Part shown: positions 10,295 to 27,550 of the stretch, piece after piece
Layout: every line of letters starts with the position of its first letter
Numbering within the stretch: position 1 is the first letter of the stretch
IMG/VR virus record: IMGVR_UViG_3300042991_001047
Span: 1 to 27,550 of that record
Reading direction: 5' to 3' (one strand)
Length of the DNA stretch: 27,550 nucleotides
From: a virus
Notes under the pieces: generated by a model
Database searches by the model: none
Told to the model about the DNA's origin: nothing
What the model saw: the letters and a program-made list of their open reading frames with translations, nothing else
Program-made: the position numbers and the translations under genes

Positions 10295-11011
10295 ATGAGA
10301 GTTATCTACGAACCAAAAGGCCGCGCCCGCGAGTATTCAGACCTCGCCTGCAATCTGTATAACGGGTGCACGTATTGCTATGCGCCAGCGTGTATGCGGA
10401 CTACAAAAGAGAAATGGCATGGTTCTGTCGCTCCCAGGAATAATGTCATAGCTCAGTTTGAACTGGACGCCAAAAAGCTCCAAGGTGATCTGCGACCGAT
10501 CCTGTTCTGTTTTCTTACTGATCCTTATCAGCCGATAGAACAGAAGGAGAGGCTCACCCGCCAGGCACTGGAAATCGTCGGGAAATACAAGCTCAAGAGC
10601 AAGATACTGACCAAGGGATCCAATGGGATAATTGGCGAAGACCTGGATCTAATGGCAGACATCGGTACCGAGCTTGGTCTGACGATCAGTTTCATGGATG
10701 ACGAGAAACGCAAAGCATGGGAGCCGTTTGCTGCTCCCATACAGGACCGATTGAAGACGTTGACAGAGGCTTTTGAAAAAGGCATCTGCACTTGGGTAAG
10801 CCTTGAACCTGTGATAGATCCCGATGAGGCACTAGCCTTGATAGAAAAGTATAGCAAGTACGTTAAACTCTGGAAAATAGGAAAACTCAACCACATGAAG
10901 GCTGTCGAAGACACAGTTGACTGGACCAAGTTCTTGCATGCTGCGGAATCATTACTCAAATCCAGTGGGGCGACGTACTATATCAAGAATGATCTCCTTA
11001 AATACAACTAG
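10295..11011 (+). CDS. Radical SAM protein, spore-photoproduct-lyase-like (moron)
   Basis: A 238-residue protein with an N-terminal cysteine cluster C19-x5-C25-x2-C28 in ACNLYNGCTYCYAP, where the last two cysteines are in the usual radical-SAM arrangement. TDPYQPIE (75-82), ILTKGSN (104-110) and VSLEPVIDP (168-176) match the core of SplB-like radical SAM proteins. The CX5CX2C spacing differs from the usual CX3CX2C. It would bind a [4Fe-4S] cluster and SAM in the cytoplasm; the substrate is unknown (DNA repair or modification, or RNA modification, are possible). It has its own promoter and flanking terminators and is more AT-rich than neighbouring phage genes, so it looks like independently acquired cargo. 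AAGGGG lies five bases before the ATG. Confidence 0.75.
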   Translation: MRVIYEPKGRAREYSDLACNLYNGCTYCYAPACMRTTKEKWHGSVAPRNNVIAQFELDAKKLQGDLRPILFCFLTDPYQPIEQKERLTRQALEIVGKYKLKSKILTKGSNGIIGEDLDLMADIGTELGLTISFMDDEKRKAWEPFAAPIQDRLKTLTEAFEKGICTWVSLEPVIDPDEALALIEKYSKYVKLWKIGKLNHMKAVEDTVDWTKFLHAAESLLKSSGATYYIKNDLLKYN

Positions 11012-24564: not shown

Positions 24565-25755
24565 ATGCTGTACAGAGTAAAAGACGCCATCGACGACGCA
24601 TCCGCGGCCACCCTTGCCAGGCTGGCCGACATCAAAGCGTCGGATCAGACCATACTGGCAAAGAAAAACCCGTTTGCGTATGCGGAAGACATTCTTACCG
24701 TCGCGGCCGGGACCATGATCCCGCTGGAGAACGGAACGTGGAAGCCGTTCGTGGTCCCCGCCGGCATCGAACTGACCGTAGAGCATCTGGATACGGCCGG
24801 AGCTTTCGCGGTCGGCAAGGACTACTATGTCTACGTCTGTGACGACGGGCTTGATGGTGTTTTGCTGATCAGCGAGAACGCCACGTATCCAGCCGGCTAC
24901 ACCGCCGTCAGCTCGCGCAAAATCGGCGGCTTCCACTTCGGCTACATCCGCAAGGTCAGCAGCGATGGCCTGTGGGTTCCCATCGACTCCGAGGGCACCA
25001 GGTTCGGCGCCGGACCGGTCGGCTGGAAGGACAACGTGACCACCGGGATCGTTCCGAACTCCGTGTGGGATCTCGTGAACCGGCCCAAGTGCAGCCCCGA
25101 GGGTATGGTCAAGGTCGGCCACATCTGGGTGGACATCTACATGGCCAGCGCGGCCGAGTCCATCACCATGGAGGGCGGAACGAACGGACTTCACGTCGCG
25201 TCCGGCCGCTTGCAGTCGAAGTACGGCCAGGTCCCGGTTTCCGGCTCGGAAGGCCTGAACTGGTACGGCTTCAACGAGCTGGCCACCCGCTCGAACAAGC
25301 GGCTCCTGTCCTACGGCGAATGGGTCAAGTCGGCCTACGGCAACCCGCAGGGCCTCGACGGAGCCGACACCTACGGGTGGACGAAGACGACCAACTCCGC
25401 GCGCGCGCGCACCGGATGCCGAGTCAACGCGTCCACCGGAGAGCACGACGCGGCCGCCGGGATCAAGCCCGCCGCCATCAGCGCCTTCAACATCGTCGAC
25501 GCGGTCGGGAATCTCTACGAGTGGCTGGACGAGCTGTCCAACCGGCACGACTCCACGGCGTTCGCCTGGCAGGACGTTCTCGGCTCCGGGAAGGGGCAGG
25601 CGTACCTCCCCAACAACGTCGGCATGGTCGCGTATATCGCTGGCGCGCACTGCAATGAGGGCGTCCACGCGGGTCCCCGTGCCGTCGGCGTGGTCAACTG
25701 CCCGTGGAGCGTGGGCGCGCTCATCGGGTCGCGCCTGGCCTGTGACAATCTGTAA
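24565..25755 (+). CDS. DGR variable protein: receptor-binding tail fibre with C-type-lectin-like fold
   Basis: A 396-residue protein with aaggag before the ATG. Residues 1-160 are an N-terminal fibre/attachment part. From about residue 165 the sequence has the formylglycine-generating-enzyme/C-type-lectin look of DGR targets: MVKVGHIWVDIYMAS, LNWYGFNELATRSNKRLLSYGEWVKSAYG, SAFNIVDAVGNLYEWLDEL. It ends in the variable region GAHCNEGVHAGPRAV...SRLACDNL. Residues 362, 363, 375, 377, 379, 382, 384, 385, 386 and 394 differ from the template-encoded ones. It would sit at the tail tip and bind the host receptor, with binding specificity diversified by the retroelement downstream, like Mtd of BPP-1. 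Confidence 0.9.
   Translation: MLYRVKDAIDDASAATLARLADIKASDQTILAKKNPFAYAEDILTVAAGTMIPLENGTWKPFVVPAGIELTVEHLDTAGAFAVGKDYYVYVCDDGLDGVLLISENATYPAGYTAVSSRKIGGFHFGYIRKVSSDGLWVPIDSEGTRFGAGPVGWKDNVTTGIVPNSVWDLVNRPKCSPEGMVKVGHIWVDIYMASAAESITMEGGTNGLHVASGRLQSKYGQVPVSGSEGLNWYGFNELATRSNKRLLSYGEWVKSAYGNPQGLDGADTYGWTKTTNSARARTGCRVNASTGEHDAAAGIKPAAISAFNIVDAVGNLYEWLDELSNRHDSTAFAWQDVLGSGKGQAYLPNNVGMVAYIAGAHCNEGVHAGPRAVGVVNCPWSVGALIGSRLACDNL
25639..25750 (+). repeat. DGR variable repeat (VR)
   Basis: 112 bases at the 3' end of the variable protein gene align without gaps to the TR at 26121-26232: 98 identical, 14 different. Twelve of the differences are at TR adenines (25648, 25687, 25688, 25693, 25694, 25700, 25709, 25714, 25715, 25717, 25720, 25721). 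Two are G to C (25653, 25746). The 22 bases from 25724 to 25745 are identical to TR and free of changes, the expected initiation-of-mutagenic-homing segment; the G/C difference at 25746 fits an IMH/IMH* mismatch. Confidence 0.95.
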
Positions 25756-25766
25756 TCTGTAATCTG
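25747..25766 (+). repeat. Tandem 7-bp repeat at the VR 3' boundary
   Basis: The unit aatctgt occurs twice (25747-25753, 25754-25760), followed by aatctg (25761-25766). It starts inside the VR end, includes the stop codon of the variable protein and runs into the ribosome-binding site of avd. It may reflect slippage during repair at the homing end, or chance. Confidence 0.6.
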
Positions 25767-25776
25767 GAGATCTGTC

Positions 25777-26115
25777 TTGTCTGGTACACGTGGATTTGTC
25801 TTGTGGCAAAAGGCCGAGGATTTTACTGAATATCTGTTCCCGATAATCGACCGATTCCCGAAGCATGAGAAATTTGCTCTGTGCAGTCAGATCAAAAACA
25901 CGTGCTACGAGATCCTTAAGCTGATCATCCGGACGAACAAGTCGAGGCAAAAAGCTCCGGGGCTGTACGAGATCGACACTCAGCTGGAAATGCTGCGGTG
26001 GCTGATCCGGCACAGCCTCCGGAGGAAATATCTCAGCCACCAAAGCTATGAAACAGCTGCGAAGATGGTGGATGAGCTGGGCCGCATCATAGGCGGTCTA
26101 CTAAAAGGAGTGTGA
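25777..26115 (+). CDS. avd: DGR accessory variability determinant (Avd)
   Basis: A 112-residue basic, all-helical protein between VR and TR, the standard location for avd. The segments FPKHEKFALCSQIKNTCYEILKLIIRTNK and IDTQLEMLRWLIRHSLRRKYLSHQSYETAAKMVDELGRIIGGLLK match the Avd/four-helix-bundle (S23-like) pattern. In BPP-1, Avd forms a pentamer that binds the reverse transcriptase and the template RNA and is essential for mutagenic cDNA synthesis. It starts with TTG at 25777, with GGAG seven bases upstream. It ends five bases before TR, so its 3' end is probably part of the template RNA. Confidence 0.9.
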   Translation: MSGTRGFVLWQKAEDFTEYLFPIIDRFPKHEKFALCSQIKNTCYEILKLIIRTNKSRQKAPGLYEIDTQLEMLRWLIRHSLRRKYLSHQSYETAAKMVDELGRIIGGLLKGV

Positions 26116-26120
26116 TGCAA

Positions 26121-26232
26121 GCTGGCGCGAACTGGAATGAGGGCGTCCACGCGGGTCCCCGTGCCGTCAACGTGAACAACTACCCGTGGAACGTGAACAC
26201 GAACATCGGGTCGCGCCTGGCCTGTGAGAATC
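26121..26232 (+). repeat. DGR template repeat (TR)
   Basis: This 112-base template is non-coding here but matches VR. It contains 24 adenines, mostly clustered in AAC codon-equivalents (seven AAC aligned to codons of VR), the usual design that lets A-mutagenesis sample many amino acids without making stops. Twelve of the 24 adenines are substituted in the present VR. It lies between avd and the reverse transcriptase and would be transcribed as part of the avd-TR-spacer RNA. Confidence 0.95.
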
Positions 26233-26354
26233 GATTAAAACCAGACGACATGGCATTACGGTGCCGGTCGCAGTGACAGATTGTCAGATCATTACTCCTT
26301 GCCGTAAGGCAGAACTATGTTGGCGCCCCGCCTGCGGGCTGGGCGCTCTTTTTT
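26233..26354 (+). ncRNA. Structured TR-RT spacer of the DGR RNA, ending in a terminator-like hairpin
   Basis: The spacer after TR contains TGACA-GAT-TGTCA (26274-26286), TGCC-GTAA-GGCA with a GNRA-type loop (26300-26311), and a larger hairpin with outer stem GCGCCC/GGGCGC (26323-26328 and 26341-26346) and inner GCC/GGC, followed by a T-run (26349-26354). In BPP-1 the spacer downstream of TR is structured and needed for cDNA priming. The last hairpin looks like an intrinsic terminator that could define the RNA 3' end. Confidence 0.55.
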
Positions 26355-26373
26355 CATCAAGGGGGTGTTTCTC

Positions 26374-27372
26374 GTGTTCGAGCGGGTATACGACTACCGC
26401 AATCTCTATGAGGCGTACATCAAGGCCAGGAAGCAAAAGCGCTACCGTGGCGAGGTCCTACAGTTCTCGTATGCCCTTGAAGAAAACCTCATCGCGCTAC
26501 AGAACGAACTGATATGGAAGACGTACAAGGTTGGCGCCTATCGCCCCTTCGTGATCTACGAGCCGAAGAAAAGGCAGATCGTAGCGCTTCCCTTCCGCGA
26601 CCGCGTCGTCCAGCACGCGTTGAACGCTGTCATTGAGCCGATATTCGAGCGGCGCATGATCCATGATTCCTACGCCTGCAGGTTGGGCAAGGGCACGCAT
26701 CAAGCGGCCCGGCGCGTGGCTTATTTCCTTGGCAAACCAGGGAATTACTACTATCTGAAGGCGGACGTGAAGTCCTTTTTCGCCTCGGTTAACCGAACTA
26801 TCCTCCGGTCGATCCTCGCGAAGCGAATCGGGGATGAAGGCCTCATGTGGCTTATAGACGAGGTTCTGAACAGCACGCCAGGGGCAGGGCTTCCAATTGG
26901 AAACCTTATGAGCCAGCTTTTCGCCAACGTCTACCTGCACGAGCTTGACCACTACATCAAGAACGTTCGCGGGGTGAAGTTCTATGTTCGCTATATGGAC
27001 GATTTCCTCATCCTGCACGAGAGCAAGACCTTTCTTTGGAGTCTTCTGGCCGACATCGAGGAGCTTCTGCGGACGCGCCTGGCTCTCACGCTGAACGCGA
27101 AGACTAGGATCGGAAAGACATCGGAGGGGATCGAGTTCGTCGGCTATCGAATATGGAGCAGGAACAAGCTCATCAAGAAGCAGTCCCTGGATCGTATGCG
27201 CAAAAAGGCGCGCGCATGGCGCCATGGAAAGATCAGCGACGGCCGCTTTCTGGCTTCGCTCGGCTCATGGATTGGCCACTCCGCAGACACCGCAAGTCAC
27301 CAGGCCGTCGAGAAGATCATGCTGGACAGCCTGCACCATCTGGCGCAATCACGGCATTCTATCGACACGTAA
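26374..27372 (+). CDS. DGR reverse transcriptase
   Basis: A 332-residue reverse transcriptase. The catalytic Asp of motif A is D131 in LKADVKSFF. GLPIGNLMSQ (residues 172-181) is the DGR-type domain-4 motif ending in SQ. YMDD (207-210) supplies the other two catalytic acids. FVGYRIW near 265 is the domain-7 element. There is no endonuclease or maturase domain. Of the in-frame starts, GTG 26374 is preferred: AAGGGG lies nine bases upstream and the protein then begins at the conserved FERVYDYRNLYEAY. ATG 26317 falls within the terminator-like hairpin. It would copy TR RNA with errors at adenines, together with Avd. Confidence 0.93.
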   Translation: MFERVYDYRNLYEAYIKARKQKRYRGEVLQFSYALEENLIALQNELIWKTYKVGAYRPFVIYEPKKRQIVALPFRDRVVQHALNAVIEPIFERRMIHDSYACRLGKGTHQAARRVAYFLGKPGNYYYLKADVKSFFASVNRTILRSILAKRIGDEGLMWLIDEVLNSTPGAGLPIGNLMSQLFANVYLHELDHYIKNVRGVKFYVRYMDDFLILHESKTFLWSLLADIEELLRTRLALTLNAKTRIGKTSEGIEFVGYRIWSRNKLIKKQSLDRMRKKARAWRHGKISDGRFLASLGSWIGHSADTASHQAVEKIMLDSLHHLAQSRHSIDT

Positions 27373-27380
27373 AACCACTG

Positions 27381-27406
27381 AAAACCCTGGTAAAACACGG
27401 TTTTTT
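27381..27406 (+). terminator. Weak terminator-like hairpin after the reverse transcriptase
   Basis: AAAACC (27381-27386) can pair with GGTTTT (27399-27404) and the T-run continues to 27406. The stem is AU-rich and weak. Runs of A recur at about ten-base intervals just upstream (27371, 27381, 27392), which may bend the DNA instead, as expected near a transposon end. Confidence 0.35.
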
Positions 27407-27432
27407 CTCAATTTAGATGATTTATTTTCTCA
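27401..27432 (+). mobile_element. Candidate right end of the Mu-like element with two transposase-site-like repeats
   Basis: TNTTTTCTCAA occurs at 27401-27411 and 27423-27433, exactly 22 bases apart, the spacing of tandem MuA sites at Mu ends. The second copy gives a terminal CA at 27431-27432, as for TG...CA ended Mu-like elements. Phage genes stop just before and an unrelated coding fragment begins just after. The left end is not available for comparison. Confidence 0.4.
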
Positions 27433-27433
27433 A

Positions 27434-27550
27434 AATTGGCGCCAGGTTACAGCGCCGCACATCACCATCAACGATCCTGGCACCGACCTGAACGGTACCG
27501 TGACCTTCAGGGGATCCGTTGCCGACGGTTCCGGCGATGCGTTCATCACC
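27434..27550 (+). pseudogene. 5'-truncated fragment of a probable host surface protein gene (Ig-like domain), continues beyond the window
   Basis: One frame reads NWRQVTAPHITINDP, then GTDLNGTVTFRGSVADGSGDAFIT to the window edge, without any ATG, GTG or TTG start with a ribosome-binding site. The pattern P-x-I-T-I-x-x-P...L-x-G-T-V-T-F-x-G-x-V-A-D-G-x-G resembles bacterial Ig-like domains of extracellular proteins. It abuts the proposed phage end, so phage insertion may have cut this host gene. It could instead be a phage gene whose start I cannot see. Confidence 0.4.

Follow-up and report, generated by a model that had tools for sequence, protein, structure and literature searches.

A complete Mtd-type diversity-generating retroelement in a Mu-like phage probably linked to spirochaetes

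The window that we analyzed is a whole viral record of 27,550 nucleotides (IMGVR_UViG_3300042991_001047). Toward its right-hand end, and all on the plus strand, lie the gene for a variable protein (24565–25755, 396 aa), whose 3′ end holds a variable repeat (VR, 25639–25750); avd, the accessory variability determinant (25777–26115, 112 aa, with a TTG start); a template repeat (TR, 26121–26232), located 5 bases past the avd stop codon; a spacer RNA region (Sp, 26233–26373); and a reverse transcriptase (RT) gene that ends at 27372. The open reading frames of the variable protein, Avd and the RT are each intact. The RT more likely starts at a GTG (26374–27372, 332 aa) than at the ATG at 26317, because the latter is not kept in two relatives, L005 and L071.

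The variable protein matches the Pfam family mtd_2nd (E = 1e-23) and the tail protein family PHROG 11262 (E = 6.5e-59), and its match to the solved structure of Mtd (PDB 1yu4) improves from an E value of 2e-15 with the single sequence to one of 6e-44 once 19 relatives are combined in a profile. This homology covers the C-terminal part of the protein, VR included, and the lectin-like FGE-sulfatase family of Pfam matches slightly under its cutoff; the gene therefore has the C-type-lectin-like variable domain, with VR at the 3′ end of the target gene, by which diversity-generating retroelements (DGRs) are recognized. An AlphaFold model built from 19 sequences was of moderate quality (mean pLDDT 58) and was used for comparison by Foldseek only, with no variable residues placed from it; in this fold prediction, which an earlier note on this DNA had proposed as a check, Mtd accounts for all five of the top matches. 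(A model from 7 sequences, with a pLDDT of 32, was set aside.) The ‘tail fibre’ of that note is better named an Mtd-like receptor-binding protein.

The opposite end of this protein has a history of its own. Comparison of 24565–24750 of the window with L066–L068 reveals an N-terminal part that is not uniform among close relatives; in the window, the beginning of the protein resembles those of L005, L071 and L115. As judged from these sequences, the N-terminal part is exchanged between subgroups in a mosaic fashion, and it is probably the end by which the protein attaches to the virion.

Avd is recognized by Pfam (bAvd, E = 9e-31), by NCBIfam (DivGenRetAVD, 113.7 bits, above the cutoff of 80) and by similarity to the Bbp7/Avd structure in PDB (4dwl, E = 3.8e-5). 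The RT, whose catalytic motifs had been described as looking intact, retains the YMDD and IGNLMSQ motifs. It belongs to PHROG 1423 (E = 2e-127), and among solved structures its best match is the bRT of Bordetella phage BPP-1 (8ub7, E = 4e-56), the runner-up being of the retron/group II type (E = 9e-18); by the solved-structure match and the PHROG assignment, what adjoins TR appears to be an RT of the DGR class. The start signals, also described earlier as intact, are so overall, with the small qualification that the Shine-Dalgarno sequence of the RT is AAGGGGG in the window vs. AAGGAGG in all but one of the five relatives that have the cassette.

VR and TR are collinear over 112 bases without gaps and differ at 14 positions, 12 of which coincide with adenines in TR (12 of 24 adenines changed; hypergeometric p = 4e-8), exactly reproducing the coordinates and counts of the earlier note. 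In the direction from TR to VR, these substitutions comprise eight A to G, two A to C and two A to T, and all 12 are at the first or second position of a codon. The two differences at other bases are at 25653 and 25746. The former, a G to C change that replaces Trp with Cys, is the sole non-A difference inside the repeat. At the latter, VR has C and TR (26228) has G; this C/G pair is constant across all six VR/TR pairs of the clade, and behaves like the marker of the IMH/IMH* boundary in BPP-1. Among ungapped self-matches of the region, the best has a score of 70 (30 Markov shuffles reach 15 at most), and a repeat search of the entire window found no third copy of TR or VR.

To follow VR and TR beyond the window, we used other IMG/VR contigs (L003, L004, L005 and L006) and a phage region in a Gracilinema caldarium MAG (L071), letting variation between strains stand in for variation within one population. 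(The last 40 bases of L003 look like Illumina adapter, presumably an assembly artefact.) The TRs of L003, L004 and L006 have 0–1 differences from that of the window, to which those of L004 and L006 are identical, whereas their VRs have 10–16 pairwise differences, nearly all at TR adenines. When the four close relatives are compared, only 1 of the 112 TR columns is variable; in VR, by contrast, 18 of the 24 columns corresponding to TR adenines vary as opposed to 2 of the 88 others (Fisher test, 8e-14), and one of the two non-A columns reflects a C-to-T change shared by the TR and the VR of L003. The variability at non-A sites is also lower than that of the 600 bases upstream (2/88 vs. 70/600; p = 0.004), as expected if VR is overwritten by TR.

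Among the more distant relatives, the TRs themselves have diverged. Each of the non-A changes in the TRs of L005 and L071 is present in the corresponding VR, such that there are no non-A mismatches over 107 positions when each VR is compared with its own TR, but 12–14 non-A differences when it is compared with the TR of the window. Because the changes in diverged TRs have been copied into the matching VRs, homing recurs in each lineage. The pattern across relatives is what repeated homing predicts: At the level of strains, TR is constant and VR is variable, and the adenine-specific divergence from which homing was originally proposed for the window recurs in the six VR/TR pairs of the clade. 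VR variation beyond the TR adenines, which had been named as evidence against the proposal, was looked for in these related contigs, and the counts given above offer no refutation. The system had also been called ‘probably active’: the differences among VRs and near-constancy of TRs support this for the recent past, but the support does not extend to the present. Signs of recent activity have been reported for 50–75% of DGRs, with the highest values in viral ones (PMC8144416).

There is also a natural loss of the cassette. A sister prophage on contig C13 of the same Gracilinema caldarium MAG, G006 (L115, 8544–9841), has a 65% identical variable protein, together with its VR, but is without avd, TR and RT: The start of avd is joined without a break to the DNA found after the RT in L005. 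Read from this junction, the cassette can be lost as a unit and leave its target gene behind, and L115 marks its borders. The VR of L115 has three non-A mismatches to the nearest TR (that of L005) vs. 0–1 in pairs with a cassette and, though these numbers are small, such mismatches are expected of a VR that is no longer rewritten. (A TR-like match in this MAG, on a contig other than that of L071, belongs to the VR of a second prophage, one that lacks the cassette.)

The VR/TR pattern, the Avd, RT and Mtd homologies, the VRs of relatives and the conserved, covarying hairpins of Sp all agree with the earlier identification of a DGR, and we have very little doubt that the locus is a phage-borne retroelement of the BPP-1/Mtd type, in which homing rewrites the VR of a receptor-binding protein. 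Its anatomy, its homologies and the adenine-specific divergence of VR beside a near-constant TR across relatives identify a real, complete and recently active DGR, of a type already known. By analogy with BPP-1, a complex of RT and Avd would bind an RNA spanning the end of avd, TR and Sp, and this RNA would be copied into cDNA, with random bases entering at template adenines. The cDNA would then be exchanged for VR at the 3′ terminus of the variable gene, with the identical 5′ part on one side and the 3′ boundary marked by the G/C difference on the other. Surface residues of the Mtd-like protein would change as a result, which could allow the phage to follow changes in the surface of its host. 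Both the biochemical steps and receptor binding are thus extrapolated from BPP-1, and two features count against the DGR explanation: the missing hairpin of the BPP-1 type (see below) and the one non-A change in VR, at 25653.

It is conceivable that this phage carries a DGR that worked in the past but no longer does, because the RT or the signal for its translation has decayed, and that VR is now frozen. The altered Shine-Dalgarno sequence of the RT, the non-A change in VR and the loss of the whole cassette from the sister prophage could each be viewed in this way; however, the three reading frames are intact and their motifs kept, TR is the same as in L004 and L006, and a single non-A difference amounts to little decay, making inactivation distinctly improbable. 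We give hardly any credence to the view that VR and TR arose by ordinary duplication of part of a gene, with positive selection but without retrohoming: Either copy is readable in the frame of the receptor-binding gene, as a duplication would have it, but this leaves the concentration of differences at TR adenines in six VR/TR pairs, the mirroring of non-A TR changes by VR and the adjoining RT and Avd genes unaccounted for. Nor does an RT of another class (from a group II intron, retron or defence system) seem at all credible as a chance neighbor of the repeats, since the group II, Drt and retron models listed by NCBIfam all score far under their cutoffs, whereas the bRT of BPP-1 leads the other solved matches by ~126 bits, most related RTs have DGR-type VR/TR pairs upstream, and IGNLMSQ agrees with the SQ form of DGR RTs.

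The target side of the locus differs from that of BPP-1. Efficient homing of BPP-1 depends on a GC-rich hairpin, closed by a GRNA loop, that lies downstream of VR (PMC3240598). Scanning for such a hairpin at 4–34 bp downstream of VR (as specified in PMC3240598) detected none in the window or its clade. The same scan recovers the hairpin in 38 of 71 loci, BPP-1 among them, vs. 4 of 71 shuffled, though it is crude and absence at other loci is uncertain; being common yet missing from some related loci, the hairpin was not taken as defining. A stem of GACAATCT with AGATCTGTC after VR was rejected as the target hairpin: it is weak and bulged, and is not kept in L005 or L071. What does lie between VR and avd (25751–25776) is a stretch with short direct repeats (ATCTGTA) that is nearly invariant in the clade. 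Because the VRs of the clade clearly diversify, either another element, perhaps this stretch, serves in place of the hairpin or none is needed.

Sp is conserved in the clade as a structured RNA with four hairpins, two covarying and two invariant. Five of its pairs have changed on both sides, compared to a mean of 1.5 in shuffles and 0–1 in slid controls (from six sequences only), and an Rfam search of the window returned no family. Three pairs changed on both sides occur in a terminator-like structure inside Sp (26322–26355), consisting of a GC-rich hairpin followed by a T-run, 20–26 bases upstream of the RT start. Of 75 related loci, 15 have a terminator-like hairpin before the RT, vs. 2 of 75 shuffled. 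In BPP-1, the folded spacer recruits bRT-Avd and serves to prime cDNA synthesis (PMC12875486), and the hairpin at 26322–26355 may have this spacer role, act as a terminator, or both. One tentative idea, which we regard as possible though rather doubtful, is that the clade represents a DGR variant able to home with no DNA hairpin on the target side. In this variant, the 3′ end of the template RNA would be set by an intrinsic terminator closing Sp, and the RT would be expressed only from transcripts that read past this terminator.

As had been noted, the phage is Mu-like: the window contains matches to GemA, DUF3164, Portal_Mu, Phage_Mu_F and Phage_tail_S. On the left the window seems to be truncated, and it yielded neither a left end nor a transposase gene. 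Between the head genes is a gene for a radical SAM protein (10295–11011), whose match to PF04055 is slightly under the cutoff and which weakly resembles the PA0069-like family of NCBIfam. On the right, two TTTTCTCA repeats, 22 bp apart and ending at 27410 and 27432, lie within 27401–27432, which terminates in CA. When aligned, the right ends of L115 and L071 have TTTTCTCA repeats with the same 22-bp spacing, followed in L115 by host genes, and from this recurrence we infer that the phage probably ends at 27432. The remaining bases (27433–27550) are probably host flank within a long surface-protein-like reading frame: their 36 aa have 67–69% identity to long reading frames, of 1705 and 2897 aa, from two Treponematales genomes (the order to which G006 belongs), and the host is, by this identity, probably a spirochaete. 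The GC content of the window is 59%, whereas that of the Gracilinema loci is 45–50%, suggesting a host other than Gracilinema itself.

The locus is a full instance of a Mu-like phage, linked to spirochaetes, that hypervaries its receptor-binding protein; among its relatives, homing is evident in several lineages and the cassette has been lost naturally in one case. The clade is also suited to the question of how a DGR locates its target when the hairpin of BPP-1 is missing.

Among known systems, BPP-1 (mtd, avd, TR, brt) has the same order of target, VR, avd, TR, Sp and RT, and the earlier note's reading of variable protein, VR, avd, TR and RT as arranged identically was correct. In both, TR comes directly after avd and a spacer of ~140 bases precedes the RT; Mtd, Avd and the RT are homologous (~37% identity for the RT), and VR differences are adenine-specific. 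The two differ in that BPP-1 has a GCGGGGCC-GAAA-GGCCCCGC hairpin after VR, where the window has no GC-rich hairpin with a GAAA loop, and in that the spacer of the window, unlike that of BPP-1, ends in a hairpin and T-run. In L003, L004, L005, L006 and L071, the elements from VR through avd, TR and Sp to the RT are ordered and spaced as in the window; TR identity is 84–100%, and the VRs differ at TR adenines. L004 and L006 have an extra gene directly after the RT that the window does not, which, judged by eye, is probably a DNA adenine methylase. Bacillus phage BalMu-1 is also Mu-like, with a VR/TR pair and an RT near the right end that is 44% identical to that of the window, and like the window clade it has no target hairpin in the same scan; however, its surrounding genes differ, and a holin and an amidase follow the RT. 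Phage attachment proteins are among the main targets in a catalogue of more than 30,000 DGRs (PMC8144416): The system itself was already known, and what is new is a further phage DGR of the Mtd type.
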